From an uncultured Ruminococcus sp. (GTDB lineage: Bacteria > Bacillota > Clostridia > Oscillospirales > Ruminococcaceae), in the NCBI GenBank assembly GCA_900315755.1, contig ONAI01000035.1:1-33091 (forward strand): a DNA stretch of 33,091 nucleotides. The letters run 5' to 3'. The notes below the pieces were generated by a model. It was given only the letters and a program-made list of their open reading frames with translations, had not been told where the DNA came from and did no database searches. Made by a program: the position numbers and the translations under genes. This document shows positions 1-21,331 of this stretch, one piece after another. Within the stretch, counting starts at the first letter, position 1. Each line of letters begins with the position of its first letter.

Positions 1-107
1 ATCTGCATGATGTCAAGGAGAACGACGAGATCTTCCGACAGCAGTACAGAAGCTACGCCGATGAATACTTCTCACGACTTGGTGTTTCAGGAGTTCAGGC
101 AAAATAA
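1..107 (+). CDS. C-terminal end of an unidentified protein (partial)
   Basis: An open frame enters from the left edge (codons begin at position 3) and stops at TAA 105-107, giving the last 34 residues of a protein ending GVSGVQAK. The tail is charged and rich in aromatic residues (EIFRQQYRSYADEYFSRLG), which looks helical. I do not recognise the family from this fragment. A strong hairpin terminator follows a few bases later, which supports this being a real gene end. Confidence 0.6.
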   Translation, partial: LHDVKENDEIFRQQYRSYADEYFSRLGVSGVQAK

Positions 108-111
108 TTAC

Positions 112-146
112 AAAAAAGCAGTTAGCTTATTGCTAACTGCTTTTTA
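112..146. terminator. Bidirectional rho-independent terminator
   Basis: A 9-bp perfect stem (GCAGTTAGC at 118-126, GCTAACTGC at 132-140) has an A-run on the left and a T-run on the right. It can end both the plus-strand gene at the window edge and the minus-strand lipoprotein gene that stops at 149. Confidence 0.9.
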
Positions 147-148
147 AT

Positions 149-1294
149 TTACTTCAGTGCTTTTGTACACTCATAATATACCTCATCATAGGAATATGAA
201 CGATCAAGTTCATCGGTCTTACCGCCGCCGACATATATCTGATCTGCCGGATATGTACCGAAATTGTAATAATCACTGTCCTTTTTCTGGCAAACAGCAT
301 AAACGCACTCGCCTTGTTCAACAACAACGAACCAGTTCATGTCATCAATAAAGTCCGCATATTTGCTGATGAGTTTCAAGACCTCTTCCCTTTTCATTCC
401 CTCAGGAAGATTCTTGTCTTTTTTATCCTCAGAAGAGATTATATATTTGCCTTCAATATTAACGCCTTTTACATCCAGATCACAAAGAGCTGTATTTGCA
501 GCCTTATAAAGCGATGAAGCCGAAGTATTCATTGATCTTTTCTTTGACGACTTCACATGATTATATGAGCTGAACAGGAATGTATCAAACTTCCAGCCCT
601 CACCTTCAAGATAATATGTCAGGAATTCATTGGTTTCTTCTTCACCCTTAGCGTTCTTGATAGTAACTTCTAAAGTCCATACATCGGTTATATCAAGATA
701 CTCTTTAAGATCGAGGTCGCCAATATCAAATACCCTGTCTGATTCTTGCTTTGATTCCTCATAGTTCTTACAGATCTCATCAACAGCCTCATCAAGCATA
801 TCTTCATCTTCGTGAACTCCGACTACTTTGACAAGCTCAAGAGGTATCTCATCCTTTGAATTCTCCTCGTATTCTTTCAGCATATCCTCTTTTTTAATAT
901 TCAAAGCCGTTAAAAGAGGATCAATAAGCTTCTCAGGAAGCTGATAGTTCAAATAATCCTCAACATCGCAATTATTTACAGAATCTATCATATCATTAAG
1001 AGCATCCTCTACTTCTTCATCGACTTCATCGAGCTCAACATCCGGATCCTCCGGCTCAGTTGAAGCACTCTGCTTCTTTCCGGTCGTTTTTGCAGCGGTA
1101 GTAGTCTCCTTTCCGGAGCTGCTGCTGTTTTCGGAAGCATCAGACTTAGAGGAGTCCTCGTTTTCAGCCGAAGAGGTCGTCGAAGCCTTTGTGCTGTCAG
1201 AAGCAGAATCACTGCCGCTGTCGCTGCTTCCACAGGCTGTGAATGTGCAGGCAACTGTTACTAAAGCTGTTAATGCTGCTATAAATCTTTTCAT
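149..1294 (-). CDS. Secreted lipoprotein with acidic Ser/Thr-rich stalk, unknown function
   Basis: A 381-residue protein starting with a lipoprotein signal peptide (MKRFIAALTALVTV) and lipobox FTAC, so it should be anchored to the outer face of the membrane. The next ~75 residues are a low-complexity Ser/Thr/Lys/Asp/Glu stalk, followed by a mixed globular region of ~270 residues that I cannot assign. The start is taken as ATG at 1294, not the in-frame TTG at 1300: AAGGAG at 1301-1309 lies only about 2 nt from the TTG but 8 nt from the ATG. It has its own promoter and the terminator at 112-146, so it is probably monocistronic. Lipoprotein call is firm; function is unknown. Confidence 0.85.
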   Translation of the reverse strand: MKRFIAALTALVTVACTFTACGSSDSGSDSASDSTKASTTSSAENEDSSKSDASENSSSSGKETTTAAKTTGKKQSASTEPEDPDVELDEVDEEVEDALNDMIDSVNNCDVEDYLNYQLPEKLIDPLLTALNIKKEDMLKEYEENSKDEIPLELVKVVGVHEDEDMLDEAVDEICKNYEESKQESDRVFDIGDLDLKEYLDITDVWTLEVTIKNAKGEEETNEFLTYYLEGEGWKFDTFLFSSYNHVKSSKKRSMNTSASSLYKAANTALCDLDVKGVNIEGKYIISSEDKKDKNLPEGMKREEVLKLISKYADFIDDMNWFVVVEQGECVYAVCQKKDSDYYNFGTYPADQIYVGGGKTDELDRSYSYDEVYYECTKALK

Positions 1295-1329
1295 AATCAA
1301 TTCTCCTTATATCATGTAATTATACAAGT

Positions 1330-1358
1330 ATTGTATCATGATAATCATAAAAAGTCAA
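1330..1358 (-). promoter_or_regulatory. Sigma-A promoter of the lipoprotein gene ending at 149
   Basis: On the minus strand: TTGACT (1358-1353), 17-bp spacer, TACAAT (1335-1330) preceded by TGA (extended -10). The start codon lies 36 nt downstream. Confidence 0.7.
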
Positions 1359-1370
1359 TATTGCTTTATA

Positions 1371-1410
1371 TAAAATAAAGGATGCTCCGCGCAGATACGC
1401 AGAGCATCCT
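1371..1410 (-). terminator. Rho-independent terminator
   Basis: Stem AGGATGCTC (1379-1387) with GAGCATCCT (1402-1410) and an inner GCG/CGC pair; on the minus strand it is followed by a T-rich tract (1371-1378). It ends the 137-aa lipoprotein gene. Confidence 0.85.
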
Positions 1411-1422
1411 ATCAATACAGAA

Positions 1423-1836
1423 TTAGTTGCTTGCCTTTGTGGTGAATTCGCTGACCTTCTTGATAACCATTTCCATAGCTTCGTCGCCTTCACCCTGCTT
1501 ACCAGTGAGAGTATCGCCGTCAGCTTCAAACTTTACCTTATCGCCATCGATCTCGATAGTAACAGTGTCACCGTCAGCTTCCCACTTACCTGTTCCATTG
1601 TCACCAGTAAGGCTGTTCTCTACGGCTGTACCATCGCTCTTGAGCTCAACCTGCATCATAAGAGCAATAGGTGTTCCTGCGACCTCTCCCTCGTATGACT
1701 CATCGCCCATAGACATCTTCTGTAACTCATACTTACCAGCATAGTCCTTATCCTTGCTGCTGCTCTTGCTTCCGCATCCTACAAATGCACTTGTAAGCAT
1801 AACTGCTGCCAGTGAAAGTGCTGCAAACTCTTTCAT
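1423..1836 (-). CDS. Small lipoprotein with lipocalin-like beta-rich domain, unknown function
   Basis: A 137-residue protein with signal peptide and lipobox FVGC at residues 18-21, then a short Ser/Lys/Asp linker. The rest alternates short strands with Asp-Gly turns (LKSDGTAVENSL, GKWEADGDTVTIEIDGDKV, FEADGDTLTGK). This strand-turn pattern is common in secreted 'lipocalin-like' Firmicutes lipoproteins whose ligand is unknown; that resemblance is an inference from pattern only. GGAGA ribosome site about 8 nt before the ATG at 1836. It lies between its own terminator and an upstream region with a -10-like TATAAT at about 1888-1893. Confidence 0.85.
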   Translation of the reverse strand: MKEFAALSLAAVMLTSAFVGCGSKSSSKDKDYAGKYELQKMSMGDESYEGEVAGTPIALMMQVELKSDGTAVENSLTGDNGTGKWEADGDTVTIEIDGDKVKFEADGDTLTGKQGEGDEAMEMVIKKVSEFTTKASN

Positions 1837-1894
1837 AAATATCTTCTCCTTAGTTATGATTAAGGATTCTTCATCCCTTCATAACATTATACAT

Positions 1895-1912
1895 GGATTT
1901 CACGCAGTTTTC
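1895..1912 (-). promoter_or_regulatory. 18-bp motif shared with the region upstream of the 720-aa LRR gene
   Basis: Plus-strand GGATTTCACGCAGTTTTC here and GGATTTCACACAGTTTTC at 18071-18088 match at 17 of 18 positions. Both lie just upstream of minus-strand genes for secreted proteins, at or next to the -35 region. A shared regulator-binding site is an inference. Confidence 0.4.
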
Positions 1913-2058
1913 ACTATTTGTACCAAATTGTAATAATTTTTTGTATATTCATCAAAAAACCACTTGCAAGTCAAAGTTTCAACTGTTAAATGTGTCCATA
2001 CATCGTCAAAGTTGGTGTATTATAGATCTATTTCCGAATCCGCGCAAGCATATCGGTG

Positions 2059-2087
2059 TTGCAAATCAGATCATAATGTGATATAAT
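2059..2087 (+). promoter_or_regulatory. Sigma-A promoter of the 179-aa lipoprotein gene
   Basis: TTGCAA (2059-2064), 17-bp spacer, TATAAT (2082-2087) with extended -10 TGA directly before it. The ATG is 33 nt downstream behind AAAGGAGG. Confidence 0.75.
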
Positions 2088-2119
2088 GTTATATCATAAC
2101 AACTTAAAGGAGGACTTCT

Positions 2120-2659
2120 ATGAGAATTTTAAAATTTGCAGCAGCGGCTATGGCTCTTACTCTTTGTATACCGGCTTTCACTTCCTGCGGAAGTAAAGAA
2201 AGTACCAGCAGCAGTTCAAAAGAAAGTTCCGGAATCAACGAAAAAGCTTTCAAAGACATGGCAGGCGAATATACCTGCACCTCTTCTATCGTAAATATCC
2301 GCGCTGAGGGCTATGAAAGCAAGGATATAAAAGACAGATTCGTATCCACTATCATAAAGATCTCAGATGACGGCACTTTGACTATGGAAGGTACGGAGCA
2401 TAAAATGACCGCCTATAAGTCTGAAAATGCTTATAATACCTATCTCGTTTCTATTGACGACAGCGGTAACGGCTACGACGGAAATAGTTTCAACAAGATA
2501 TATGGAACTAAAGAATACGATGGCCCTTCCTATTTTTTGTTCACCGCTAAAGGTACCGATCAAGATGGCTACAAAGTCGAAAAAGACACTATCGAATTGT
2601 ACTTCTCTCCAAAAGGCACCGAAGATTGGTACTTCGCTCTTGATTACAGCAAGCCATAA
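2120..2659 (+). CDS. Lipoprotein, unknown function
   Basis: A 179-residue protein with a classic lipoprotein signal (MRILKFAAAAMALTLCIPAF) and lipobox FTSC at residues 20-23, followed by a Ser/Lys linker to about residue 38. The remaining ~140 residues contain a GEYTCTSSIV start and a repeated strand-turn pattern suggesting a single beta-barrel or lipocalin-like fold, as in the neighbouring lipoprotein at 1423-1836, though sequence similarity between the two is weak. Strong ribosome site AAAGGAGG 6 nt before ATG. Own promoter and terminator, so monocistronic. Before the element inserted it would have faced rplM-rpsI convergently. Confidence 0.85.
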   Translation: MRILKFAAAAMALTLCIPAFTSCGSKESTSSSSKESSGINEKAFKDMAGEYTCTSSIVNIRAEGYESKDIKDRFVSTIIKISDDGTLTMEGTEHKMTAYKSENAYNTYLVSIDDSGNGYDGNSFNKIYGTKEYDGPSYFLFTAKGTDQDGYKVEKDTIELYFSPKGTEDWYFALDYSKP

Positions 2660-2680
2660 CAACTTCTTATATAAACATAA

Positions 2681-2712
2681 CGCCTCGCAGGATAACCCTG
2701 CGAGGCGATTTT
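2681..2712. terminator. Terminator of the 179-aa lipoprotein gene; probably once shared with rpsI
   Basis: An 11-bp perfect stem (CGCCTCGCAGG at 2681-2691, CCTGCGAGGCG at 2697-2707) followed by ATTTTT on the plus strand. It lies 22 nt outside the left att repeat. Reading the att repeat as the rpsI 3' end, this hairpin would fall about 38 nt after the rpsI stop codon in the uninterrupted chromosome. Confidence 0.85.
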
Positions 2713-2728
2713 TCGTATAGTCCCAGTT

Positions 2729-2749
2729 GGGATAAAATTATCTCTTTGA
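2729..2749. repeat. attL: 21-bp direct repeat, left end of the element
   Basis: Identical to 11518-11538 (starts GGGATAAAATTATC, ends CTTTGA). Similarity continues outward: TCCCA at 2721-2725 matches TCCCA at 11510-11514, with a 3-nt difference between (GTT against ACA). The centre GATAA-AA-TTATC is an inverted repeat, as expected for a tyrosine recombinase core. Confidence 0.85.
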
Positions 2750-2774
2750 TAAGATTTCTTATCGCTTTGATAAG
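2731..2774. promoter_or_regulatory. Array of five alternating GATAA/TTATC half-sites at the left end
   Basis: GATAA at 2731, TTATC at 2738, GATAA at 2748, TTATC at 2759 and GATAA at 2769, about one helical turn apart. The outer part includes a direct repeat CTTTGATAAG (2744-2753 and 2765-2774). Placement on the att core suggests recombinase or excisionase binding sites; that is inference. Confidence 0.5.
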
Positions 2775-2897
2775 TGAGAAGCCCCTAAAAATGGCGTTTT
2801 TTCGATGTTATCTATAATAGATGAGTGCTATAAGAGTGGTGTGCAACACGTCTTAGCAGGTTTATACACGTCGCTTGGGACGCTGTAACTATAATTA

Positions 2898-3137
2898 TTA
2901 TACTCCCTTTTTGATCTCGGCAGTTGCAGCGTTAAGGTATGCAGATATTGTTGCCTTGCAGCTTTCGGCGCGCTCCAACATCTGAGCTTCCGCACCGTCG
3001 CAGAGCCGTTGCTCCCCGATGTGGTCGATGAAGTCATCGAGCAGAACGCGCAGGAAGAAAGCGTCATTGTATGTCAGCTCCACGGAGCTGAGGTAGTCGC
3101 CGTCGGGCTGTCGTGTAAAGTTAGCGGATTGGCTCAT
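2898..3137 (-). CDS. Small unknown protein, third gene of the recombinase operon
   Basis: A 79-residue protein with no recognised family. It begins MSQSANFTRQPDGDY and is largely helical by composition (a LLDDFIDHIGEQRL stretch, then EAQMLERAESCKA). The start is ATG 3137 because AAGGAG sits 9 nt upstream and the longer frame's ATG lies inside that ribosome site. It overlaps the previous gene's stop by 17 nt, so translation is probably coupled. Position at the left end of the element and coupling to the recombinase suggest an accessory role in recombination or its control; the sequence itself does not show it. Confidence 0.6.
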   Translation of the reverse strand: MSQSANFTRQPDGDYLSSVELTYNDAFFLRVLLDDFIDHIGEQRLCDGAEAQMLERAESCKATISAYLNAATAEIKKGV

Positions 3138-3492
3138 AAATAATCTCTCCTTCATTGGCGATAAGGTTGTTGAAATCGTCGATATAAAGCTCTATACTCT
3201 GTCGTTTTGATAACGGTGTTTCTTTTCCAAAATAAATGGCAAGAGTTCCGCTGTTGTCCTCTTTGTCGAGGTCGTCGGTAGGGGTAAAGATGATAGTCGT
3301 ACCCTCATACTCAATGTAGCAATCCTTGATAAGCACAGCGTAGTCTTTTGTCGCGCCGTTGCCGTTATTGAGGTCAGCTTTGAGTAGATCGAGTGCCGCA
3401 GGGATGTCAACACAGTTGACGCAAAATGCATCGTCCTCGCCTGTGAAATGTTTTACATAAGCGGCATAGCTTACAGGAAATATCTCACTCAT
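3121..3492 (-). CDS. Unknown 123-aa protein, second gene of the recombinase operon
   Basis: Protein begins MSEIFPVSYAAYVKHFTGE and ends EGEIIYEPIR. It is acidic, with alternating beta-like segments (CYIEYEGTTIIFTP, TLAIYFGKE, SIELYIDDFNNLI); no motif I recognise. ATG 3492 is chosen over upstream candidates because AAGGAG lies about 9 nt before it. Its start overlaps the recombinase stop by 8 nt (ATGAGTGA), a typical coupled arrangement. Function unknown; a partner of the recombinase is a guess from layout only. Confidence 0.65.
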   Translation of the reverse strand: MSEIFPVSYAAYVKHFTGEDDAFCVNCVDIPAALDLLKADLNNGNGATKDYAVLIKDCYIEYEGTTIIFTPTDDLDKEDNSGTLAIYFGKETPLSKRQSIELYIDDFNNLIANEGEIIYEPIR

Positions 3493-4186
3493 TATCTTCA
3501 TTCTCCTTTTCAATCTCATTTAGATACTTATAGAATGTTTTTCGACTTATTTTTGCAGCAGCGGCACATTGAGTATCGTTGAGAGTGCCGCCGAATCTTA
3601 CGGAATTTTTACGGATAACAGTAATTGCAGGGGCTTTCTTCTTGACATTGAGGACACTACCCTGCGGAGTTCCTATACGCTTTCCCTTACGTCGAGCTGT
3701 TTCAATTCCTTCAGCCGTCCTCTGATGCAGGTCATCGACCTCTTTCTGAGCCTGACCGAACGCGAGCTCTATCTGCTTTGTGGCAAGTAGCCGCAGTACC
3801 TTGTTTGTCGCTTCAATGTAGATATCCGCGATCTCATTTCCGACGAGCTCAACGCTGTTGCTCAGAGCTTGCTTATAAGTTGCCGTGTTTATGTGCGGCT
3901 CTTTGAGGAACACAAGCTCTATCCCCTTGTCATAGAGCTGCATATACATCTCGATACCTTCGATAGCATTACGGCTCATACGGCTCACGCTATCAAAGAC
4001 TATTGTGTCGCCGCTCCTAACCTCTCTGAGTATCTTATCCAATCCTCGACGATTGAGCTTTGTGCCTGTGTAGGTCTCTTTCGTTATCCGCGCTGTCGGG
4101 AATGCTGCAAGGATATTACGCTCCTGCCGTTCGATATTCTGCTTCTTGGTGCTGATACGGCAATAGCCGTATATCACGTTCATCAT
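3485..4186 (-). CDS. Serine recombinase (resolvase/invertase family)
   Basis: About 233 residues. The N-terminal catalytic domain has YGYCRISTKKQ with the nucleophilic Ser in the R-I-S position, followed by the family's IERQ and the DTIVFDSVSRMSRN block (counterpart of the usual D-x-x-x-x-x-DRLSR motif). A long helix (LATKQIELAFGQAQKEVDDLHQRTAEGIETARRKG) leads to the family's RKGKRIGTPQG segment and a C-terminal helix-turn-helix (DTQCAAAAKISRKTFYKYLN). The size fits small resolvases, not the large serine integrases. Start at ATG 4186 or 4183, with AAAGGAG just upstream. It is first of three overlapping genes and has a strong promoter. It could resolve plasmid or transposon co-integrates; that it moved this element is not supported by the repeat type. 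Confidence 0.9.
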   Translation of the reverse strand: MMNVIYGYCRISTKKQNIERQERNILAAFPTARITKETYTGTKLNRRGLDKILREVRSGDTIVFDSVSRMSRNAIEGIEMYMQLYDKGIELVFLKEPHINTATYKQALSNSVELVGNEIADIYIEATNKVLRLLATKQIELAFGQAQKEVDDLHQRTAEGIETARRKGKRIGTPQGSVLNVKKKAPAITVIRKNSVRFGGTLNDTQCAAAAKISRKTFYKYLNEIEKENEDNE

Positions 4187-4215
4187 TTTCACTCCTTTCA
4201 TTAACTGTATAAATA

Positions 4216-4227
4216 TAACGGCCGTTA
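4216..4227. promoter_or_regulatory. Perfect palindrome in the recombinase leader
   Basis: TAACGGCCGTTA, 12 bp, fully self-complementary, lying just after the predicted transcription start (about 4236) of the recombinase operon and before its ribosome site. Location suits a repressor operator or a recombinase crossover site. Confidence 0.45.
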
Positions 4228-4242
4228 CTATTTTACATTTCT

Positions 4243-4271
4243 ATTATAGCATAAGAAGAGGCATTTGTCAA
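4243..4271 (-). promoter_or_regulatory. Consensus sigma-A promoter of the recombinase operon
   Basis: On the minus strand: TTGACA (4271-4266), 17-bp spacer, TATAAT (4248-4243) with TGC in front. Both hexamers are perfect consensus. Confidence 0.8.
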
Positions 4272-4320
4272 TCACTTTTACACAATTTGGAATGGTGGTA
4301 TTTTTACACAGCGTATTATA

Positions 4321-4349
4321 AGAAAATAGAGACTGCATTTGCAATCTCT
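4321..4349 (-). terminator. Terminator of the restriction-modification gene
   Basis: Stem AGAGA-C-TGCA (4328-4337) with TGCA-A-TCTCT (4340-4349), one wobble pair on the minus-strand RNA, followed on that strand by ATTTTCTT. It lies 11 nt after the stop at 4361. Confidence 0.65.
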
Positions 4350-4360
4350 GTTTAAATAGT

Positions 4361-7300
4361 TTAGTTAAGGTATTGATTCAGAATATCGGTAATTTTACCT
4401 GACAGTGTTTCAAGCTTCTGTTGCGCTTCTGCGATCTTTTTTTCAAGTTCTTCTATCTTTGAGATAGCCTTATCTTGCACATCTCTGTTTGGCACAGAAA
4501 AAGTAATACCTTGAATCCTGTCAATGGACGCACGATACGAACGAGAAAATCCCATTTTTCTGCCTTCAACTTCAAGAATATGAACCATGTATCGTGGATT
4601 CACCTCAGGTGTCTTACAACGCAATACTCCACAATGATCTGTAGGGTAGAATTCTGTATTTTTAGGCATATACCTTGTCATCCAGTCTCCATCTATTCCC
4701 CACAGGACAGACGGTAACGAAAAATCTGTAATCAGGAGCTTGTCAATAAATCCGAAAGGCTCATAAACATTGGCGCTGTAAACGGGAATTGTTCCATCAT
4801 ATACAAGCTCTTTGTTAAGAACTCGATTTCCTATAGAAACATTAAACTTGCTAACATCAGCAAGACTCAGTTTGTACCCCCCCACGTTAGCGACATCTAA
4901 CTCTGCGAATAATTCTTCAATCTTCTGCCTATAAGTCTCAATCGACATACGAGTTGTATTGAATTCTTCATCTATTTTTGAACATTCTGAAATGATCTGT
5001 TTCTGTGTTTCTATCGGAGGCAACGGAATCGAAAGTTCTTCGTAAAACTCCGCCGGAACCCTTCTATGTCCACTTGCGCCAGTCATTGCATCCTCAGCCG
5101 CTTTGCGCACCATATTTTGATTAAGAAGAAGGAATAGATATTTTGTTAATAACACATCTGTATGACATCTAAAAGTATGGAATTCACTGCTTCCAAAGCC
5201 TATTCCATTTGTAAGTCCTTCAGCAATAGCACACTTACCATTTTCCATGCAAGGGGTTATTTTCGCAATAATTATATCTCCCTCAGCAAAGTATGTATAT
5301 CCGCCATTGCGCACTTCGCCATAAGGACGATCAACTTTTGTTTCAATATAGCCTTCGTTGCTTACTGATGCCATCTCAATAAACGAAACAAGCATATCGT
5401 CAGGTTTATTATGAATTTCAGTTTTTGATACATTTATATCGCAAACCAAGGTTAGCTTTATTAATGGGTATTTACTTGAAAAACTGAAAACCTTTTTAGC
5501 CCTTAGCCTTAGTGATTTATTGAAAGTTACTCTCGAAAAATCGAGCATATCTTTTGAGTGTACGACTGAACCATAATCTTGCTGCTCGTCATTGAGTGTC
5601 GGAATAGTTCCATCAAAAGATTGTTTAATCGCATTAGCAAGTGTCCCTAATGCTTCACGATTTGCGTCATTATACATTTTGCCGCCGGGCATTATGATCT
5701 GGATACCTTCATTTCCTTTGCGGTTAGACCAATCATAGCCCAGAAACTCCTTTTGCTCCTTGTTGTCTGCTGGCGCGGAAATAATAACTGTAGTCTGACG
5801 ATATACCAACGAGAAATATAATAGCTTTTCTTCTTCAATTGAGCTTGCATAGGCATAAAACTTTTCAAGGTATGCTGCTGCTTGCTCTTCGGTACTCTTA
5901 TTCTTGAATGCTTTTGTCTTTTGAAGATTTTTCGCTTCAGTCGAATCCGCGAACGCTTCTACATACATTTTAAAGTATTCATCATCATTCAATTCATCAA
6001 TGGAGTAATCCTTTCTCAGGAATGCTCTATAAACATCCTCATCGACTTCAATCTGAGCCATGTATGCTTCAAGGATTTCCTTGTCCTTCCATTCCGTGAG
6101 CTCAGCACCGCTGAAAATTGCTTCAACAGAATCAGCAGACAAATCAATCTGCTTCGGAGGCTCATTGAATTTTTCGAGGAACATCACGACCGTATTGGTT
6201 CCGGTCGCACCAAATGTTTTTGAACCGAATGCAACAATTCCGCGGATATAAAAGTTCTTTAGCAGCTGCTCGCGTGCTCCTGTATAGCTTGCACTGTCAT
6301 TCGAGAGAATGGAACTTGGCAAGATAACCGCTGCAATTCCCTGTGGCTTCAGAAGCTGCGCAATTCGTTCCACAAACAAGGTCTCAATCTCGCTACCATT
6401 CAATCCGATGCGTTCAAGCAGGGTAAAGTTGTTGTTCTTTAACTGTAGATGCTGCTTGAAATCCTTTACAGCATAAGGCGGATTCGCTACAAGAATATCG
6501 AAAGAGCCATTTGCTATACCCTTATCAGGAGCATTTTCAAGTCCGTCACCGAAGATGATATTGCCCTCTCCGGCTCCGTTCATAAACAGGGAGATTTTGG
6601 CAACACGGGCGAGACGATAGTCTTTTTCAATACCGAAAATATGATCTCGCGCCCACGAATTATCTCCATCTGATTCAACAAAATTATTAATCGCCTCAAT
6701 TGCTTCGGTTAGGAAGTGTCCTGCACCGCAGGCATAGTCAATCACCTTGGGATATATGGTTCCTCTGTCAGATTTCACCATACGGTCAATGGGGAGACTA
6801 TCCCAGATAAAGCGGGTGATCGGCATTGGTGTGAAGAACTGTCCTTCGTTTTGCTTAAAGCCCTTATTCAAGAGCTGCTCAAATAAGTCGCCAAGGAACT
6901 GATGTTTGGACGGATAGACAATCCGATACTTTTCAAAGAGCTGCACCATTTCAACGAGTATTTTTCCATTTTGATAGAAAAGCTCCTCGTTGTGAACATC
7001 TTTGAACGCAAAATCGTTATTGGAATAGAATTTCAGGATACGAATAGTGTTCTGCAAATCCTCAATAGCTTTTTTCCTCTTTGAGCCTGTATAGGTAGAG
7101 AACAGCCATTCAGGATAATCGGCAGCAACATAGTATATTTCTTCGCGCATAAATTTTTCCATGCCATCACGATGCAAACGCTGAAGACGGTCTTGCAGCG
7201 TTTCATATGTATCTGTTCCCTGTTTGTATTGAAACTCTACTTCGTCATCTTCACCTTTTGTGATTTCATCAACAAGTTTGCATATAAACAAAGCAATTAA

Positions 7301-8104
7301 GCGATTAAAGGCATTCTCTTTATCACTGACATTGTTGTGACGTAATATTTCTTCAAATCTATTAACAATCTTGTCGTCAGGAGTAAAGTCTTGCAAGTTT
7401 TTCTTTAGCAGCGGCTTAACGCCGATTTTATATGCGACAGAGTCATCAGAGAAAACCAGATCATCATGTATCTGGCTGCCATAGGTTTCCTTCCACGCTT
7501 CATATTTCTCTGGCGCTGTATGTGCATCTCGATAAAGCCTTATCGACTTATCTTTTTTGGAGAGAAGAACAATATTAGCATCATCTGAACAATCAATGGT
7601 TGGAGCCTTATACTCAATAATGTCCTCTTTCAGATCAGAAGCATACAAAACGAGCCATTTGCATGACTGTTCCTGCTGCCAGTACGAAAAGAGCTGTGCG
7701 CCGTCATTTTTGGTATCGCTGAACGCCTTATCAAATTCTCTGCCCCAAGTCTTACATTCAATGATAAATAGCATTGAACCGTTAGAATCAGTCACACAAA
7801 TATCAGCTCGTCCACTTTTGGCATCATGTCCAAGATGCCATTCTTTTTCAAGTTCAATATGTTCAGGACGATAACCTTTGTCCAACAGACGGCTAACGCA
7901 CTCAAAAACCACAAAATTTTCAGGAGCATCAAAGCCATTATTTCGCTCTTTACCTTTGATATTATCAGGATAATATAGCTTCTTTTTCGTAAAATCGACA
8001 CGTAATGATGCACCAAAGCTTGGAAATCTTTTCTCGTATGAATCCCCATTCTCATGGAAGCCAAGTAATCGCAATACTTTTTTGAAATTGGATTCAGTAA
8101 TCAT
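4361..8104 (-). CDS. Single-chain restriction-modification-specificity protein (type IIG/IIB, AloI-like)
   Basis: A 1247-residue fusion. N-terminus: a PD-(D/E)xK nuclease with D101, E116-C-K118 and a QLFSY (QxxxY-type) motif at 137-141. Middle: an N6-adenine methyltransferase of HsdM type with GQFFTP (421-426), SAM motif DYACGAGHF (456-464) and catalytic NPPY (541-544). C-terminus: two target-recognition domains (about 880-1030 and 1076-1206), each followed by a long helix (1033-1070, 1208-1245), as in HsdS. Such R-M-S chains with two TRDs, about 1250 residues long, are known in the AloI/PpiI/TstI group, which recognise split sites and cut on both sides. One protein would both methylate and cut. 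All catalytic motifs are present. Own promoter and terminator. Confidence 0.9.
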   Translation of the reverse strand: MITESNFKKVLRLLGFHENGDSYEKRFPSFGASLRVDFTKKKLYYPDNIKGKERNNGFDAPENFVVFECVSRLLDKGYRPEHIELEKEWHLGHDAKSGRADICVTDSNGSMLFIIECKTWGREFDKAFSDTKNDGAQLFSYWQQEQSCKWLVLYASDLKEDIIEYKAPTIDCSDDANIVLLSKKDKSIRLYRDAHTAPEKYEAWKETYGSQIHDDLVFSDDSVAYKIGVKPLLKKNLQDFTPDDKIVNRFEEILRHNNVSDKENAFNRLIALFICKLVDEITKGEDDEVEFQYKQGTDTYETLQDRLQRLHRDGMEKFMREEIYYVAADYPEWLFSTYTGSKRKKAIEDLQNTIRILKFYSNNDFAFKDVHNEELFYQNGKILVEMVQLFEKYRIVYPSKHQFLGDLFEQLLNKGFKQNEGQFFTPMPITRFIWDSLPIDRMVKSDRGTIYPKVIDYACGAGHFLTEAIEAINNFVESDGDNSWARDHIFGIEKDYRLARVAKISLFMNGAGEGNIIFGDGLENAPDKGIANGSFDILVANPPYAVKDFKQHLQLKNNNFTLLERIGLNGSEIETLFVERIAQLLKPQGIAAVILPSSILSNDSASYTGAREQLLKNFYIRGIVAFGSKTFGATGTNTVVMFLEKFNEPPKQIDLSADSVEAIFSGAELTEWKDKEILEAYMAQIEVDEDVYRAFLRKDYSIDELNDDEYFKMYVEAFADSTEAKNLQKTKAFKNKSTEEQAAAYLEKFYAYASSIEEEKLLYFSLVYRQTTVIISAPADNKEQKEFLGYDWSNRKGNEGIQIIMPGGKMYNDANREALGTLANAIKQSFDGTIPTLNDEQQDYGSVVHSKDMLDFSRVTFNKSLRLRAKKVFSFSSKYPLIKLTLVCDINVSKTEIHNKPDDMLVSFIEMASVSNEGYIETKVDRPYGEVRNGGYTYFAEGDIIIAKITPCMENGKCAIAEGLTNGIGFGSSEFHTFRCHTDVLLTKYLFLLLNQNMVRKAAEDAMTGASGHRRVPAEFYEELSIPLPPIETQKQIISECSKIDEEFNTTRMSIETYRQKIEELFAELDVANVGGYKLSLADVSKFNVSIGNRVLNKELVYDGTIPVYSANVYEPFGFIDKLLITDFSLPSVLWGIDGDWMTRYMPKNTEFYPTDHCGVLRCKTPEVNPRYMVHILEVEGRKMGFSRSYRASIDRIQGITFSVPNRDVQDKAISKIEELEKKIAEAQQKLETLSGKITDILNQYLN

Positions 8105-8185
8105 AGTTATTTCCTTTCAAGGTGAATTGAACAAGTTACTATTGCTAATCACGCTGAGTGCCTTTTGCATAAAACTATTATTTAT

Positions 8186-8214
8186 ATTATAGCAAAATAA
8201 AGTTTTTTAGTCAA
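8186..8214 (-). promoter_or_regulatory. Sigma-A promoter of the restriction-modification gene
   Basis: On the minus strand: TTGACT (8214-8209), 17-bp spacer, TATAAT (8191-8186) preceded by TGC. The ATG is 82 nt downstream, with GAAAGGA as ribosome site. Confidence 0.8.
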
Positions 8215-8264
8215 GGTATAGAAAAGGAGAAAACAGGCATTAAGAAAGCTGATCTTAATATTTT

Positions 8265-8300
8265 CAAGAAAAACGGAGCGACTTTTTTATCGCTCCATTT
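8265..8300 (-). terminator. Terminator after the mob region
   Basis: Stem GGAGCGA (8275-8281) with TCGCTCC (8290-8296); on the minus strand it is followed by a G then TTTTT. It ends transcripts of the small gene at 8330 and of the relaxase remnant. Confidence 0.8.
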
Positions 8301-8329
8301 ATTATGAGTTTACAATGATTTTGTCCTTC

Positions 8330-8650
8330 TTAATACCGTGGAACACCTACTTCTATGGTGTACTCGTCGTTAAGATTGTTATTTGTGCTCAGTTTAATTG
8401 TTGTTGCTCCCTCAGAGCCGTCGGGGGAAAGCGCTGTGTAGTCATATACAATCGAAATATCCCATATTTCCGCACCAACATAATGCTCGAAAGCTGAAAT
8501 ATAGTTGTTTATATCTCTAAGAGGGGCATCGGCAGGAATATCACTATAAAAAACATATACATTTTGCGATATTCGGTTATTCCCTTTCGTTGCGTTCCGG
8601 CTTTGAGGAAAAATCACGATTCGGCTCTGCTTCAAGAGGTGTATAGTCAT
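8330..8650 (-). CDS. Unknown 106-aa protein overlapping the relaxase 3' end
   Basis: Starts MTIHLLKQSRIVIF and ends YTIEVGVPRY. ATG 8650 is chosen because AAAGGAG lies 8 nt upstream; longer frames run antisense-free but lack such a site. It overlaps the last 74 nt of the relaxase frame in another register, a tight packing often seen in mobilisation modules. Middle and C-terminal parts look like a small mixed alpha/beta domain (YVFYSDIPADAPL, IWDISIVYDYTAL, TTIKLSTNN). I do not recognise it. With the relaxase promoter apparently lost, its expression is uncertain. Confidence 0.6.
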   Translation of the reverse strand: MTIHLLKQSRIVIFPQSRNATKGNNRISQNVYVFYSDIPADAPLRDINNYISAFEHYVGAEIWDISIVYDYTALSPDGSEGATTIKLSTNNNLNDEYTIEVGVPRY

Positions 8651-9770
8651 GTTGACTGCTCCTTTCATTTTGATATAATTGATCGAAAATACGATTGTAT
8701 TTTTGTTGGTATGATTTATTAACGGTTGCTCTTGTCTGAATAGCAAGTGTACGCCGTTCAAGAAGCTCAATTGCGCGTCTGTCGGCGCTTAAACCTTCAT
8801 TGATGCCTTTGCTAATTTCATCTTTTATTCGCTGTTCCTGACGTTCGAGCTCTGCTTTACACTCAGCATTTTTACTCGCTATACTTTTGGCAATTGAGAG
8901 TTTTTCATCCGCTTCTTTGCTTAGCCTTTCTGCCTCTATGATCGGAAGATATTTATTATCCCACTCGGCCTGTTCGTTAGGTACCGCCTTGTTGTGCTTC
9001 TCCACTTTTCTAAGCTCTGCTTTGTATTCTTTCATTTCTTGGGCGTATTCCTTTTTTCGCTTTTTTTGATCTTCATATGAAAAAATGTATCCGAGTTCGG
9101 GCTCTTTTGGCGGGTTTAAAAAGTCGGGACGAGGTGGGAGCTCTGCGACGATCTTTTTATTCTGCTTGTCGATTTTTGCTGAATTATCCATGATCTTAAC
9201 CTCCTGTTCAGAAATAGTCGAAATATTTGCTTTTATTTGGCGCTCTTGTTCAGCAATTTGGCGCTCATTGTCTTGTACTACGGGATAATATGTCTCCATA
9301 ATTTTTGTCGGAATTGTAAAGCCTCTGCCTTTTTTCGGAGGCTCAATTTCAAATCCATGCGCTTCACAAATCTTCTGAAAAATACCACGCTCCGACTCTG
9401 TAAAGTTTTTTATAGCGTCCTTGCCATTACCGTATCCCATGGCTTCCAGTGCTTTGGATAATCCCTGCTGCCTTGTCATCCCTTTTTTGAATCCGTCAGC
9501 GAAAGGAATTATATCATAATGCAAGTGAGGTGTCTTTTCGTCCATGTGAATTACAGCATTAAAAACATAGAAATTTGGATTCCTTGCAGCGAAACTTTGG
9601 ACGCCGATTTTCTCGTTTCCGAGCATATATTCTGCGAGGCATTGTGCAGCGATTTCGGCATCTTTAGGATTAGCAGCAATTTTTGTTCCATCCTTTAAAA
9701 CTGAATCAACAAGAGCAGTATCAATCATTGACCCTACGCCTACGACATACTCATAAAACGATTGCTGCTT
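8577..9770 (-). pseudogene. MobV-type relaxase (plasmid mobilisation protein), 5'-truncated
   Basis: The frame encodes the relaxase motif HMDEKTPHLH (the HxDExTPHxH metal-binding site; residues 61-70 counted from the first internal ATG at 9728) followed by a long charged coiled-coil tail (QDNERQIAEQERQIKANIS and beyond). The family-like sequence continues upstream of that ATG (FYEYVVGVGS, to about 9770) without a start codon, then runs into integrase sequence read on the other strand. The family's N-terminal motifs (the HxxR-like motif I and the NYDL-like motif II) are missing, roughly 40-50 residues. The ATG at 9728 has no good ribosome site. Relaxase activity is therefore probably lost. Confidence 0.8.
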
Positions 9771-9775
9771 ATTAT

Positions 9776-10219
9776 CATTTTTTATACAGCGGAGTGCGTG
9801 TGTCCGAGCTGCTTGACCTGAAACGTGAGAATGTCAACATAGAGGAGCATTGCTTCAAGGTGGTGGAGAGCAAGACCGAGAGCGGTATCCGTGTTGTGCC
9901 GATACACGACAGGACTTATCCGTTCTTCAAGAAGTGGTACGAGGACGGCAAAGAGTATCTTCTCCATACTCCCGACGGCAAGCAGTTTATCTACCGCAAC
10001 TACTACGATTCCTACTGGACACCTGTTATGGAGCTGATCGGCTGCTCACATAAGCCACACGATACCCGTCACACCTGCATCTCTATGATGACCGAAAAAG
10101 AGGTATCGCCTACGCTGATAAAGAAGATCGTCGGTCATTCAGGCGCTATGTCATTGACCGAGAAGGTTTATACGCACGTTAATGTGCAGGAGCTGTTGGA
10201 GGCTATTAATAAGATATAG
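9776..10219 (+). pseudogene. Tyrosine integrase, catalytic domain only (5'-truncated)
   Basis: Integrase homology begins at about 9776 (HFLYSGVRVSELL) and runs to TAG at 10219. The catalytic residues are all present: Arg in SGVR, Lys in KTESG, HxxR in HDTRH, His in VGHSG and the Tyr nucleophile in VYTHV. The N-terminal core- and arm-binding domains, normally about 200 residues, are absent. The open frame reaches back to 9683, but that part is antisense to the relaxase and is not integrase-like. With no promoter, start or DNA-binding domains it should be inactive. This is the likely remains of the enzyme that inserted the element into rpsI. Confidence 0.88.
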
Positions 10220-10227
10220 GTATAAAA

Positions 10228-10262
10228 TAACCGCTGAGGGAAACAATCTCTCAGCGGTTTGA
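10228..10262. terminator. Terminator between the integrase remnant and the cyclase-like gene
   Basis: Stem CCGCTGAG (10231-10238) with CTCAGCGG (10250-10257), TTTGATTT on the right and an A/T-rich left side. It suits both convergent genes. Confidence 0.8.
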
Positions 10263-10263
10263 T

Positions 10264-11346
10264 TTATGGATTTAATATTTTTCCTTCTTTGTCGATTATT
10301 TGTATAACAAGTTTCATGTATCGACGTTCGCAATTGCCTTGCGAAACAATGCGATGTTCCGGTTTATTATACTTAGCACACATATAATTATGATAAACCA
10401 TTGACCACACATACTTACGCAGTACACGTTCTTGAGCATCAAACAGCTTTATTTCTTTTGTTGCAATAGAAGAATAGTTGCTGTGTTTAATCAGTTTCTG
10501 CTCGACAATTTGTTTATGCAAATTCAGTATTAAATCAATATTCGGAAATGATTTTGGCAACTTCTCATAATCAACAGGAGATATTTGCTTCATCATATCC
10601 AAAGCCTGTCCTAACATTTGTTCAGGAATAAATGAACGTATATCAAAACAATATAAGTATGACAAACAAATAACATCATCATCACACTTATAAAGAAGAT
10701 TGATTGCTATATTCCGTTCAAGTATAGTTTGATTATACATCTGGAGAATTCTTGAATAGAAAATTTTTTCGTCCTCAGCGATGACATCTCCGTTTTTCAT
10801 TTTATTTTCAATGGAGATTGCACTATTTAACTCATCCTGACTATACAGAACATTTTGGTCTAATATGTCAATAATCTCGTCTGATACTGCTATCCTGGGG
10901 TGAACAGTTTTCTCTTCAAGTTCTACTGCTTTGATTAGTCCTTCACCGAAAATATAGTCATCATTAATGGACATTTTGCCTTTGGTGAAACCGCCACGGA
11001 GAAACAAACCACATTCCGTAATAAAACCTCTCTGAATGGAATTAATAATACTCATAAAAGTAATAATGCGAGATTTTTCCTTAGTAGCATCATCGCCAAC
11101 TTCTATACACAGAAGTACATTATCAGAAAAAATCTTAGATTGAATATGCATATTTGCAAACTGCGATGCGAGTTGAGAGTCGTTAGCTGAATTAATAGTG
11201 GCTAATGTGTTAGAAATAGCAGAATTTACAATGTTTAGAAATTCGGGAGCTTTCTCAGGAGTTTCTTCAAAAAAAGCCTTATAGCCTAAAATATCAAAAT
11301 AGGCGATGTAGTATTCCTTTATAGGATTAGCGGTATTGTTTTCCAT
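10264..11346 (-). CDS. Class III nucleotidyl cyclase-like protein, element cargo
   Basis: A 360-residue protein without signal peptide. Residues 14-160 follow the class III cyclase layout: metal Asp in AYFDILGYKAFF (D18), second Asp in KIFSDNVLL (D75), a glycine block LRGGFTKGK (116-123), then FGEGLIKAVELEE (133-145) and HPRIAVSDEI (149-158). These match, in order, the strand and helix signatures of adenylate/guanylate cyclase domains, including relatives used in Pycsar defence. Residues about 165-360 are mostly helical and unassigned. ATG 11346 is chosen for the AGAAGG site upstream. It lies on the rpsI strand, 180 nt after that gene, with no clear promoter. Product nucleotide and any effector are unknown. 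Confidence 0.65.
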   Translation of the reverse strand: MENNTANPIKEYYIAYFDILGYKAFFEETPEKAPEFLNIVNSAISNTLATINSANDSQLASQFANMHIQSKIFSDNVLLCIEVGDDATKEKSRIITFMSIINSIQRGFITECGLFLRGGFTKGKMSINDDYIFGEGLIKAVELEEKTVHPRIAVSDEIIDILDQNVLYSQDELNSAISIENKMKNGDVIAEDEKIFYSRILQMYNQTILERNIAINLLYKCDDDVICLSYLYCFDIRSFIPEQMLGQALDMMKQISPVDYEKLPKSFPNIDLILNLHKQIVEQKLIKHSNYSSIATKEIKLFDAQERVLRKYVWSMVYHNYMCAKYNKPEHRIVSQGNCERRYMKLVIQIIDKEGKILNP

Positions 11347-11373
11347 ATTCAACCTTCTTTCTATTACAAATAA

Positions 11374-11408
11374 GGCATTCACCAAACGATGAATGCCTTG
11401 ATTTTTTG
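11374..11408. terminator. Hairpin just upstream of the cyclase-like gene
   Basis: Stem AAGGCATTCA with TGAATGCCTT (10 bp, about 11372-11397), then GATTTTTT on the plus strand and ATTTGT on the minus strand. It is a good plus-strand terminator; on the minus strand it is weaker but would sit between rpsI and the cyclase-like gene and could reduce read-through. Confidence 0.55.
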
Positions 11409-11440
11409 TTAGTTACCCGTTAGTTACGTGTTAGTTACCG
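11408..11440. repeat. Three 11-bp direct repeats (GTTAGTTAC) near the right end
   Basis: GTTAGTTACCC (11408-11418), GTTAGTTACGT (11419-11429), GTTAGTTACCG (11430-11440): the first nine bases are identical and units are directly adjacent, one helical turn each. They sit 77 bp inside attR, the usual place for integrase arm-type sites. Replication iterons are an alternative. Confidence 0.65.
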
Positions 11441-11517
11441 TCCGAAATTCACCATATTTCAGATAAACCCAAACCGGACAAAACAGCGTAAATACGTGAT
11501 TTTGAATACTCCCAACA

Positions 11518-11538
11518 GGGATAAAATTATCTCTTTGA
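11518..11538. repeat. attR: 21-bp direct repeat overlapping the rpsI stop
   Basis: Identical to 2729-2749. On the minus strand it encodes the final Ser-Lys-Arg-stop of rpsI (stop at 11527-11529) plus 9 nt after the stop, so insertion leaves the ribosomal protein unchanged. Confidence 0.85.
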
Positions 11539-11928
11539 GAACTGAGGAGCGCGACGAGCAGCCTTGAGACCGTACTTCTTTCTTTCCTTCATACGTGGGT
11601 CACGAGTGAGGAATCCAGCCTTCTTAAGGGTTGGACGAAGTTCAGGGCTGAACTCGAGGAGAGCACGTGAAAGACCGTGTCTGATAGCACCAGCCTGACC
11701 TGTAACTCCGCCGCCGACAACAGTACAAACGATGTCGAACTTATCGAGATTATCAGTAAGAGCGAGAGGCTGACGAACGATGAGCTTGAGTGTCTCAAGA
11801 CCGAAATAGTCATCAATACCTCTGCCGTTGATTGTTACATTACCAGAACCGGGATAGATTCTAACTCTTGCAACAGAGTGCTTTCTTCTGCCAGTTCCAT
11901 AGTAGTATTTAACTTTTGATTCGTACAT
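11527..11928 (-). CDS. rpsI: 30S ribosomal protein S9
   Basis: A 133-residue S9 of normal length. It shows [15 protein letters not shown] near the N-terminus, the [14 protein letters not shown] block in the middle, and the basic C-terminal tail ending in SKR that reaches the ribosomal P site. GGAGG lies 9 nt before the ATG. It is the second gene after rplM, 18 nt downstream, as in most bacteria. Its last codons form half of the element's attachment core, and its likely original terminator is now 8.8 kb away at 2681-2707. What terminates it today is unclear; read-through into the cyclase-like gene is possible. Confidence 0.98.
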
Positions 11929-11946
11929 TTAAAAGCACCTCCTGAA

Positions 11947-12375
11947 TTAAAGCTCGTAAGCAACAGGCTTCTGAGCAGCCTGGTTGTGGTTAGCATCCTT
12001 ATAAGTTCTGAGTCTCTTGAGCTGAGCGCGTCCGAGGCTGTTGTTAGGAAGCATACCGTTAACAGCGATCATCATAGCTCTGTCAGCCTGATTAGCCATC
12101 ATATCCTTGTATGCGATGGACTTGATACCGCCGATCCAGCCAGTGTGCCAGTAGAACTTCTTCTGCTCAAGCTTCTTACCAGTAAGGATAGCCTGAGCGC
12201 AGTTGATAACGATAACGTGGTCACCACAGTCAACGTTAGGTGTGAAAGTAGGCTTATGCTTGCCTCTGAGAATATGAGCTGCCTTAGCTGCAACGCGACC
12301 GAGCGGCTGTCCAGCAGCATCGAGGACGTACCAAGTGCGAGTTACTTCAGCAGGTTTTGCCAGTGTAGTAGACAT
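11947..12375 (-). CDS. rplM: 50S ribosomal protein L13
   Basis: A 142-residue L13 of normal size. Family features: RTWYVLDAAGQPLGRVA, then GDHVIVINC, the FYWHTGWIGGIKS signature, and AVNGMLPNNSLGR. ATG 12375 with GGAGG about 10 nt upstream; the longer open frame to 12450 runs through the leader hairpin and is not used. Transcribed with rpsI from a near-perfect promoter, with a hairpin leader that may mediate autoregulation. Confidence 0.98.
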   Translation of the reverse strand: MSTTLAKPAEVTRTWYVLDAAGQPLGRVAAKAAHILRGKHKPTFTPNVDCGDHVIVINCAQAILTGKKLEQKKFYWHTGWIGGIKSIAYKDMMANQADRAMMIAVNGMLPNNSLGRAQLKRLRTYKDANHNQAAQKPVAYEL

Positions 12376-12824: not shown

Positions 12825-14015
12825 TCAAGCAGCTAAGAGGTTGTTATGGATCTGACGAGCATCTTCAAGATCGAGACCATTCATGCGGTCTACGTTGCCC
12901 TTCTTAACGCCCTCAGCTGTGATACGGTTCTCGTCTGTACCGTTGATGCCGTACTTAGCTTCATTATTAGTTGCCTGCATTACGAGAATTTCATCAGCTA
13001 TGTTAACTTCGTTATCGTTGTTAGCATCGCCGTTATCCGGATTTGGATTAGGAATGTTGATCGTGAAATCCATCATGCAGTTACCAACTACTGCATATAT
13101 AGTAGCCTTACCGTAAGCGTCGCCGTTTACGTGGATGATACCGTTATCAACAGTTGCTAATTTAGTGTTGTCGCTGAACCAGTATATATTTGCGTTCTTA
13201 GGAAGATTTACCGGCATGAACATGAAGGAATAACCTGCGCCAACTTCTTTGATCTCGTCAATGTGCTTTGTTTCGCGGTCAACCTGAATGCCTGCGTTAG
13301 CAGCCATGTTTTCTTCTATCTTAGCCTTGATCTCATTTGTTTCCTCTTCTGTTAAGTTATTCTCATCTATTACTGAGATTATATCTTCAGCAGTTTCAAA
13401 AGTTTTGTTAGGGTTATCAACTATTCTGATGCAGCCATTCTGCATACCCTTTGTGTAGAGCCAGTCCTGCATTGCATGACCAGACGCATTATCTTCAACG
13501 TTTGTAAAAGCATCGTTTGTGTTGCTGTCGTAAGCAAACTCAAAACCTATCGGATAGAGGTCGCCGATCTCTGCGTCCTTAGGAACACAGAATGTAACTG
13601 TAAAGATAACCTCATTGATCATCGGACGGAATACCTGAGCACCTGCAAGAGCCTCACCCTTTACGAACGGAGCATTGGTTGAAGGATGAAGACGAGTATC
13701 ATAATGGATCGTAATATCGAAGCAAGCATAAGCATTGTCAGCGCCGGTTACTACGAACTCTACCGGAACTTCCATACCGCGGATGTCTTCTGTGAAGAGG
13801 ATATTCTTGCTGACTACTGATAAGGTTGGAGTAGTCTGAATATCTGTTGAGATCTCTTCGCCTTCGCCAGTCTTGTATTCGATATAGTTAGTAGGATCAT
13901 ACTCTACCATTTCGTTATCGCCCTTGTATGAAGCGTTAGCTGCCATACCGAATGTCATTGTTAAGAAACTACCGATCATCATCATTGTAGTTATAGCTGT
14001 TAAAGTTTTTTTCAT
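12825..14015 (-). CDS. Secreted cohesin-dockerin protein (adaptor scaffoldin-like)
   Basis: A 396-residue exported protein with signal peptide at 1-28. Residues about 62-199 match a cohesin: TPTLSVVSKNILFTED, then VPVEFVVTGADNAYACFDITIHYD, an NEVIFTVTF strand and IGFEFAYD. After a helical spacer (205-258) comes an Ig-like beta domain (260-321, with IYWFSDNTKLATVDNGIIHV). Residues 327-394 are a dockerin: first calcium loop D330-x-N-x-D334 with D341, second loop N374-x-D376 with D385, the latter degenerate. One cohesin plus one dockerin is the plan of adaptor scaffoldins such as ScaC of R. flavefaciens; the Ig-like domain between them is extra. It would bind a dockerin enzyme and plug into a larger scaffold. 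ATG 14015 with AGAGAGG upstream. The cohesin call is from pattern, so moderate. Confidence 0.7.
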   Translation of the reverse strand: MKKTLTAITTMMMIGSFLTMTFGMAANASYKGDNEMVEYDPTNYIEYKTGEGEEISTDIQTTPTLSVVSKNILFTEDIRGMEVPVEFVVTGADNAYACFDITIHYDTRLHPSTNAPFVKGEALAGAQVFRPMINEVIFTVTFCVPKDAEIGDLYPIGFEFAYDSNTNDAFTNVEDNASGHAMQDWLYTKGMQNGCIRIVDNPNKTFETAEDIISVIDENNLTEEETNEIKAKIEENMAANAGIQVDRETKHIDEIKEVGAGYSFMFMPVNLPKNANIYWFSDNTKLATVDNGIIHVNGDAYGKATIYAVVGNCMMDFTINIPNPNPDNGDANNDNEVNIADEILVMQATNNEAKYGINGTDENRITAEGVKKGNVDRMNGLDLEDARQIHNNLLAA

Positions 14016-21127: not shown

Positions 21128-21143
21128 TAATTAAATAGTCTCA

Positions 21144-21175
21144 AAGCAGCTTCTCTTCGGAGAGGCTGCTTTTTT
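21144..21175 (+). terminator. Terminator of the GH9 gene
   Basis: Twelve-pair stem with a TTCG tetraloop (AAGCAGC...GCTGCTT) followed by TTTTT. Textbook rho-independent. Confidence 0.92.
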
Positions 21176-21270
21176 GTGCTGCTCCCTCCTGTAACAAAGC
21201 ACATTAAGTAAGCTGTTCACTGCAATTCGTGTAATTCTGACCAGATATTGCGAACATATAGCTGCTTTCA

Positions 21271-21299
21271 TTGACATATATGTACATATATGATAAAAT
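21271..21299 (+). promoter_or_regulatory. Promoter of the GH10 gene with an overlapping palindrome
   Basis: TTGACA (21271-21276), 17-bp spacer, TAAAAT (21294-21299) preceded by TGA. The spacer is filled by the perfect 18-bp palindrome CATATATGTACATATATG (21275-21292), positioned to block RNA polymerase if a repressor binds. Confidence 0.65.
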
Positions 21300-21331
21300 T
21301 ATTATGCAATACTTTTTGGAGGGAAAATCAC

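Follow-up and report, generated by a model that had tools for sequence, protein, structure and literature searches.

A decayed element adjoining the rpsI 3′ end of an uncultured Ruminococcus sp.: probable fusion of two integrative elements

How does a segment come to lie between two identical attachment-site cores when both its integrase and its relaxase gene are incomplete and its two ends resemble those of different elements? The question is raised by a 33,091-nucleotide stretch of DNA from an uncultured Ruminococcus sp. (contig ONAI01000035.1 of assembly GCA_900315755.1; hereafter, the window), in which 8.8 kb at the 3′ end of rpsI, the gene encoding ribosomal protein S9, is bracketed by a 21-bp direct repeat. 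An earlier reading made from the letters alone (the sequence-only reading) had taken this segment for an integrated element with an intact attachment-site (att) pair. Our comparisons argue for another origin, to which we assign a probability of roughly 0.7: two rpsI elements fused by deletion into a composite, decayed, and non-autonomous element. The source genome is a 2.45-Mb assembly of 123 contigs, 92% complete; genomes and loci used for comparison are cited by our own handles (G and L numbers, respectively).

Identical cores bracket the segment and complete rpsI

The repeat, GGGATAAAATTATCTCTTTGA, is present in two exact copies, referred to as the left and right cores (Table 1). At ≤3 mismatches, the core was matched twice in the window and in none of 100 window shuffles. 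The whole genome likewise yielded two matches at this threshold and none to the reversed control pattern. Within a 60-genome set that includes the source genome, the core was found at the same threshold in 25 genomes and the reversed control in 3 (G006, G048, and G057). Leftward of the cores, the likeness continues as TCCCA and then meets three mismatched bases (GTT versus ACA), as the sequence-only reading had already noticed together with the perfect repeat and the rpsI stop codon in one of its copies. Profile searches also recovered the gene classes that it had placed between the repeats: the recombinase is a serine enzyme of resolvase type, the relaxase belongs to Mob_Pre, the integrase is a tyrosine enzyme of phage type, and the cargo includes a type IIG restriction-modification gene, besides small and unknown genes. 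The right core spans the final three rpsI codons (S-K-R) and the TAA stop, thereby leaving the reading frame undamaged. The serine codon of this C-terminal tripeptide differs among loci L216, L220, L223, and L229 (CTTTGA versus CTTGCT in the core), a variation that may arise if the end of the gene is provided by whichever element integrates.

Integrase and relaxase genes are cut at a single junction

A common cut between positions 9782 and 9783 shortens both the integrase and the MobV-type relaxase genes at their 5′ ends. The integrase remnant lacks the first 203 residues and keeps 146 of 349 (204 to 349), 138 of which are identical to the 349-residue protein of G001. Missing from the relaxase are ∼85 N-terminal residues of the 486-residue G105 protein, an HNNR motif among them; the remaining fragment scored 25.1 bits against the NCBIfam MobV model (cutoff, 100) and 36.7 against Pfam Mob_Pre (cutoff, 25.5). 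HxxR is given as motif I of MobV relaxases (PMC5090054), which the G105 HNNR would fit. With both genes cut at the same point, a working element is not supported, and "intact" applies to the repeats only. Apart from the remnant, the 92%-complete source assembly yielded no full integrase copy, just a weak 33% match, and no other Mob_Pre match; it thus shows no comparable helper.

To either side of the cut, similarity leads to different relatives. When window positions 8577 to 11520 were used as the query against 125 genomes of the genus, 50 of which gave any match, G105 covered the first 1,206 bases, i.e., up to position 9782, at 93% identity. Matches from seven listed genomes (G133, G131, G063, G001, G109, G090, and G098) start at query base 1207 (window 9783) and those from four others (G062, G002, G117, and G003) at base 1209 (window 9785), with several shorter matches starting further right.

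The two ends are of two types

End types were assigned by exact motif. In G105, the interval from a left core to rpsI is occupied by a comparable element that has the left end, orf85, orf132, the serine recombinase (98% identity), orf146, and the relaxase in common with the window. The G105 integrase is 44% identical to that of the window, and the G105 right end bears a terminator-like hairpin. The left end of the segment is of this G105 type, seen only in G105 and in the segment itself. Its right end is paired with another left end, GATAAAGTGCA, in all three genomes showing both ends (G001, G133, and Ruminococcus flavefaciens ND2009). Judged by these motifs, the att pair looks hybrid, with a left end of the G105 type and a right end of the G133/ND2009/G001 type.

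Other end arrangements were observed along the way. The G105 locus (L083, G105:C45) contains two left-type ends at 5724 and 10305, 4.6 kb apart and with the same terminator-core flank, an arrangement that suggests tandem accretion. G006 and G007 have one element left end in common and different flanks, the change falling at the core. A 24-kb rpsI element in G024 (L031/L032, G024:C53 9885-34179) lies between two perfect cores, has a left end of the GATAAAGTGCA type, and encodes a serine recombinase, a relaxase, and an integrase at 47%, 40%, and 41% identity, respectively.

The integrase belongs to a clade tied to rpsI

The five best integrase matches among named genome records are all from Ruminococcus, at 95 to 99% identity, and include R. 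flavefaciens ND2009; we accordingly take the host for a member of that group. In the genome_contigs collection, rpsI is present in 55 of the 74 loci of this integrase clade, always downstream and convergent, at a median distance of 492 bp (range, 158 to 6,227 bp). The clade is therefore tied to rpsI. Of the 74 integrases, most (57) begin no later than residue 60. A contig edge interrupts another 5, and in the remaining 12 a truncated or diverged N terminus delays the start, so that the truncated copy in the window may not be unique.

The left flank adjoins rpsI in a relative

A search for the left flank, with window positions 1 to 2760 as the query against the 125 genus genomes, returned one long match outside the source genome. 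G061 is 91% identical to positions 1 to 2743, the match stopping within the core, and other genomes gave short matches. Since rpsI (100% identical at the protein level) follows ∼105 bp after the start of the left core in G061, flank and rpsI adjoin there without the 8.8-kb insert. This arrangement, together with the presence of the integrase clade at rpsI in 55 of 74 loci, upholds insertion at the rpsI 3′ end as originally proposed; that the att pair is intact and stems from a single element is not supported, the ends matching two types. An empty site with one repeat copy had been expected in a related strain. Its joined flank was found in G061, and its single, clean copy was not found in the 125 genus genomes, among which only G061, besides the source genome, covers the flank.

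Gene-less core-flanked units similar to the one described below for G061 occur in G019, G024, G064, G072, G106, G101, G063, and G073. The start-to-start spacing of the two cores or core-like copies is 95 bp in G061, 150 bp in G106 and G072, 152 bp in G064, and 165 bp in G019. Because these five genomes have two cores at rpsI without the element, a core pair alone is no proof of one insertion. The sequence-only reading had itself named separate repeats in relatives lacking the element as a finding that would count against it, a point on which these pairs, 95 to 165 bp apart, bear in part.

Units of ∼150 bp without genes were also noted at the rpsI 3′ end or at the left end of elements, with a core-like copy at the terminus and terminator-like hairpins inside: L216 (G073:C21) 5600-5990, L217 4555-4800, L104 4600-4845, L040 6908-7093, and L031 9885-10058. 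G073 carries ∼2.5 tandem copies. Such units may have arisen by tandem duplication or may be relics reduced to little more than their att flanks. A hairpin of the kind found in the left flank of the segment (Table 1) lies left of the rpsI core in L032, L043, L085, and L088, other loci having different hairpins.

Proposed fusion of two neighboring elements and its alternatives

We propose that two tyrosine-integrase elements would have integrated side by side (accretion) at the rpsI 3′ end, the left partner being a relaxase-bearing element of the G105 type and the partner beside rpsI an integrase/p373 element of the G133/ND2009 type (p373 denotes a gene of the right part; Table 1). An illegitimate deletion would then have joined the two between positions 9782 and 9783; lost with it would be the start of the relaxase gene on the left, the start of the integrase gene on the right, and everything in between. 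What would have been left is the present arrangement of identical 21-bp cores, an intact rpsI frame, the full-length type IIG gene, and p373. The remnant is predicted to be unable to excise or transfer alone. In principle, it could be cut out at its cores by a related rpsI integrase, which would make it a cis-mobilizable element (CIME).

Several observations weigh against this proposal. In G024, the GATAAAGTGCA left end is accompanied by another right end and by an integrase of 41% identity; ends are thus common to different elements, which lowers our confidence in two parents. G105 is the sole other genome in which the left-type end of the segment was seen, and the G105 integrase could be the one that was replaced. 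In G061, the left core is short by 2 bp, and ∼80 bp of a core-flanked unit, with a terminator-like hairpin, precede a diverged core at rpsI. The association of the integrase clade with rpsI has exceptions: 19 of the 74 loci show no rpsI (13 extend 3.7 kb or more downstream, and 6 less than 1.3 kb), and in viral_contigs rpsI accompanies just 1 of 22 loci, the other 21 having at least 1.9 kb (11 loci) or less than 0.7 kb (10 loci) downstream. Two genomes, G100 (79% identity) and G104 (67%), start to match the junction query at bases 1190 and 1196 and so overrun the break leftward by 17 and 11 bases. We considered whether they hold the same fusion and rejected it: the leftward extension is gapped, of low identity, located in the integrase's own frame region, and devoid of a relaxase match. 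Finally, in a 92%-complete assembly of 123 contigs, a misjoin at position 9782 retains a small probability.

The strongest competitor, which we hold to be unlikely though worth weighing, is a single element with a G105-type left half and a G133-type integrase and right end, the middle of which was lost by one internal deletion; G105 would then be the recombinant. One deletion is enough to account for both truncations, and three loci (L127, L131, and L137) do carry a clade integrase (84 to 90% identity) and a Mob homologue (41 to 48%) in the same stretch, just as otherwise different elements have ends in common (G024). In those three loci, however, the Mob homologue lies on the integrase strand, whereas the pair in the window is divergent. 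Moreover, by exact motif, the G105 left end was seen only in G105 and the window, and the right end of the segment occurs elsewhere with the other left end (in all three genomes showing both ends).

Far less probable is an assembly chimera, in which genuine elements of two strains or two loci were wrongly joined at position 9782. The fragmentation of the assembly speaks for it, as does the fact that no other match in the junction search spans the break in the same way. Yet no sequence common to the compared parents is found at the join, positions 1 to 12000 of the window are free of ambiguous bases, the same core borders both outer ends, and G061 agrees with the window in rpsI as well as in the left flank.

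Integration by the serine recombinase rather than by the tyrosine integrase, which would draw on its being the one recombinase gene of the element without evident truncation and on its 98% conservation in G105, was rejected as very improbable: only resolvase-type domains were found in the protein, 53 of the 55 rpsI-associated loci gave no match to it in the sequence covered, rpsI tracks the tyrosine integrase, and tyrosine integrases typically use a core of such length at the 3′ end of a gene.

A broader picture is more tentative, and we would not bet on it at even odds. The rpsI 3′ end in Ruminococcus may be an open, recurrent accretion site where defense-carrying elements stack, swap ends, and fuse into hybrid att-flanked cassettes movable by a resident or incoming rpsI integrase, and where gene-less, core-flanked units of ∼150 bp multiply in tandem. 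The window would be a snapshot of this process.

Gene content of the segment

The features of the segment and its borders are listed in Table 1.

Table 1. Features of the rpsI-associated segment (positions in the window)
Feature	Position	Strand	Remarks
Terminator-like hairpin, left flank	2681..2707	.	Read from the sequence; kind also present 3′ of rpsI in some relatives
Left core, attL-like	2729..2749	+	21 bp, exact repeat
Two core-like repeats TTATC[T/G]CTTTGATAAG, 21 bp apart, left end of element	2738..2774	+	End type common to the G105 element
orf85, unknown	2898..3155	-	87% identity in the G105 element
orf132, unknown	3121..3519	-	64% identity in the G105 element
Small serine recombinase, Resolvase domain	3485..4201	-	PF00239, E 1.4e-22; 98% identity in the G105 element
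Type IIG restriction-modification protein, 1247 aa, full-length	4361..8104	-	PADLOC PDLC03624 and Pfam domains
orf146, unknown	8330..8770	-	88% identity in the G105 element; overlaps 3′ end of the relaxase gene
MobV/Mob_Pre-type relaxase remnant	8577..9782	-	Mob_Pre profile matched at 108-181 of 196 only
Apparent junction of two parental sequences	9782..9783	.	No base common to the compared parents at the join
Remnant of tyrosine integrase (catalytic C terminus; residues 204-349 of 349)	9783..10219	+	PF00589, E 8.5e-19
p373, no known domain	10264..11385	-	Beside same-clade integrases in G133, G002, and G062
Right end of element	11359..11517	+	Common to G133/ND2009/G001-type elements
Right core, attR-like	11518..11538	+	21 bp, spans last rpsI codons and stop
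rpsI, ribosomal protein S9, target gene, frame intact	11527..11928	-	Ribosomal_S9, PF00380, E 3e-50

The type IIG protein matched PDLC03624 with 1,059.7 bits over residues 1 to 1246 and contains N6_Mtase, Methylase_S, and HSDR_N_2 domains; by these domain models, it is a single full-length nuclease-methyltransferase-specificity chain. Activity of this cargo in defense is what the models would predict. In G105, the same slot is occupied by a type II methyltransferase and restriction enzyme pair. The interval between integrase and rpsI also varies among the right-type elements: it contains p373 in G133, as in G002 and G062, whose integrases are 84% identical, genes for a TIR-like ThsB and for a candidate defense protein in G001 (a role assigned from models only), and two large genes in ND2009. 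The family searches brought up no conjugation gene in the element of the window.

The p373 product had no Pfam match better than an E value of 0.21, no NCBIfam or PADLOC match at E 0.01, and no match to solved structures up to E 5. Its predicted model was poor (mean predicted local distance difference test score, 42.8). In its pattern of strands and motifs, the product may resemble class III nucleotide cyclases. Matches to p373 were found in 3 of 247 genomes of the family, the source genome included, and no relative was confirmed in viral_contigs. A homologue 91% identical to p373 lies next to rpsI in a different genus of the same family (G182, L229 8648-9769). In G182, the likeness to the window begins at position 10217, where the integrase stop codon lies, and the 15 kb read at this locus gave no integrase match. 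Such conservation in another genus points to either recent transfer or selection to keep p373.

Relation to known elements

The sequence-only reading regarded rpsI as an uncommon target compared with tRNA genes, a view that the record does not support. The gene is an established site of integrative and conjugative elements (ICEs) and integrative and mobilizable elements (IMEs) in streptococci (PMC5090054 and PMC4701971); ICE_RhoA2-183_rpsI is reported in R. hominis A2-183 (PMC12904643); and rpsI is frequent for the integrase clade studied here. These ICEs (PMC4701971 and PMC12904643) have the target gene in common with our element, a gut Clostridia host included, and are conjugative, unlike our element as far as the family searches show. 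Among the matches listed in the literature searched, we found no account of rpsI elements in Ruminococcus, and PMC12904643 was the only one to bring Ruminococcus, rpsI, and integrase together.

A close described counterpart is IMESag-rpsI of Streptococcus agalactiae, located at rpsI, equipped with a MobV relaxase, and 9.1 to 9.5 kb in size (PMC5090054). Compared by description rather than by sequence, the two are alike in the rpsI 3′-end site, a phage-type recombinase, and similar size, and the relaxase of the window, below the NCBIfam MobV cutoff and above that of Pfam Mob_Pre, is putatively of the same type. IMESag-rpsI excises and has a functional mobilization module, whereas in the window both genes are truncated, the relaxase is present as a fragment only, the other genes differ, and the element looks composite. 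Measured as an IME, the segment has direct-repeat att sites at a specific target and lacks a complete integrase of its own (residues 204 to 349 of 349 only) and a complete relaxase (N terminus missing). It comes closer to a CIME, in which attL and attR are kept and the integration and transfer genes are lost; both genes are truncated here, and the two cores are identical and may still recombine. PMC5704250, which sets out the concepts of CIMEs and accretion, describes tandem accretion at one att site as a route to such elements. A simple decayed CIME differs from the element of the window in that the ends here appear to stem from two elements, i.e., a fused CIME.

Two sequenced relatives approximate the supposed parents. 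The R. flavefaciens ND2009 rpsI element (NZ_JHXI01000015.1, L122) has the same right end and an integrase 98% identical over the kept part, but its integrase is full-length (349 residues), its left end is the other one, and other genes lie between integrase and rpsI. The G105 element resembles the window in its left end, orf85, serine recombinase (98%), orf146, and relaxase (92%) and differs in its 486-residue relaxase, its 44% integrase, and the type II restriction-modification pair that replaces the type IIG gene. The window offers a base-exact example of seemingly fused, site-sharing elements forming one att-flanked relic, and connects swapped restriction-modification cargo with an integrase clade found at rpsI. 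General knowledge of such elements is unchanged, the seemingly fused att pair being the one notable feature.

Outside the element, a repeat that we take to be dockerin-like is present in inverted copies at window positions 12918 to 13031 and 23075 to 23188, and tandem 12-base repeats extend from 20792 to 23079.

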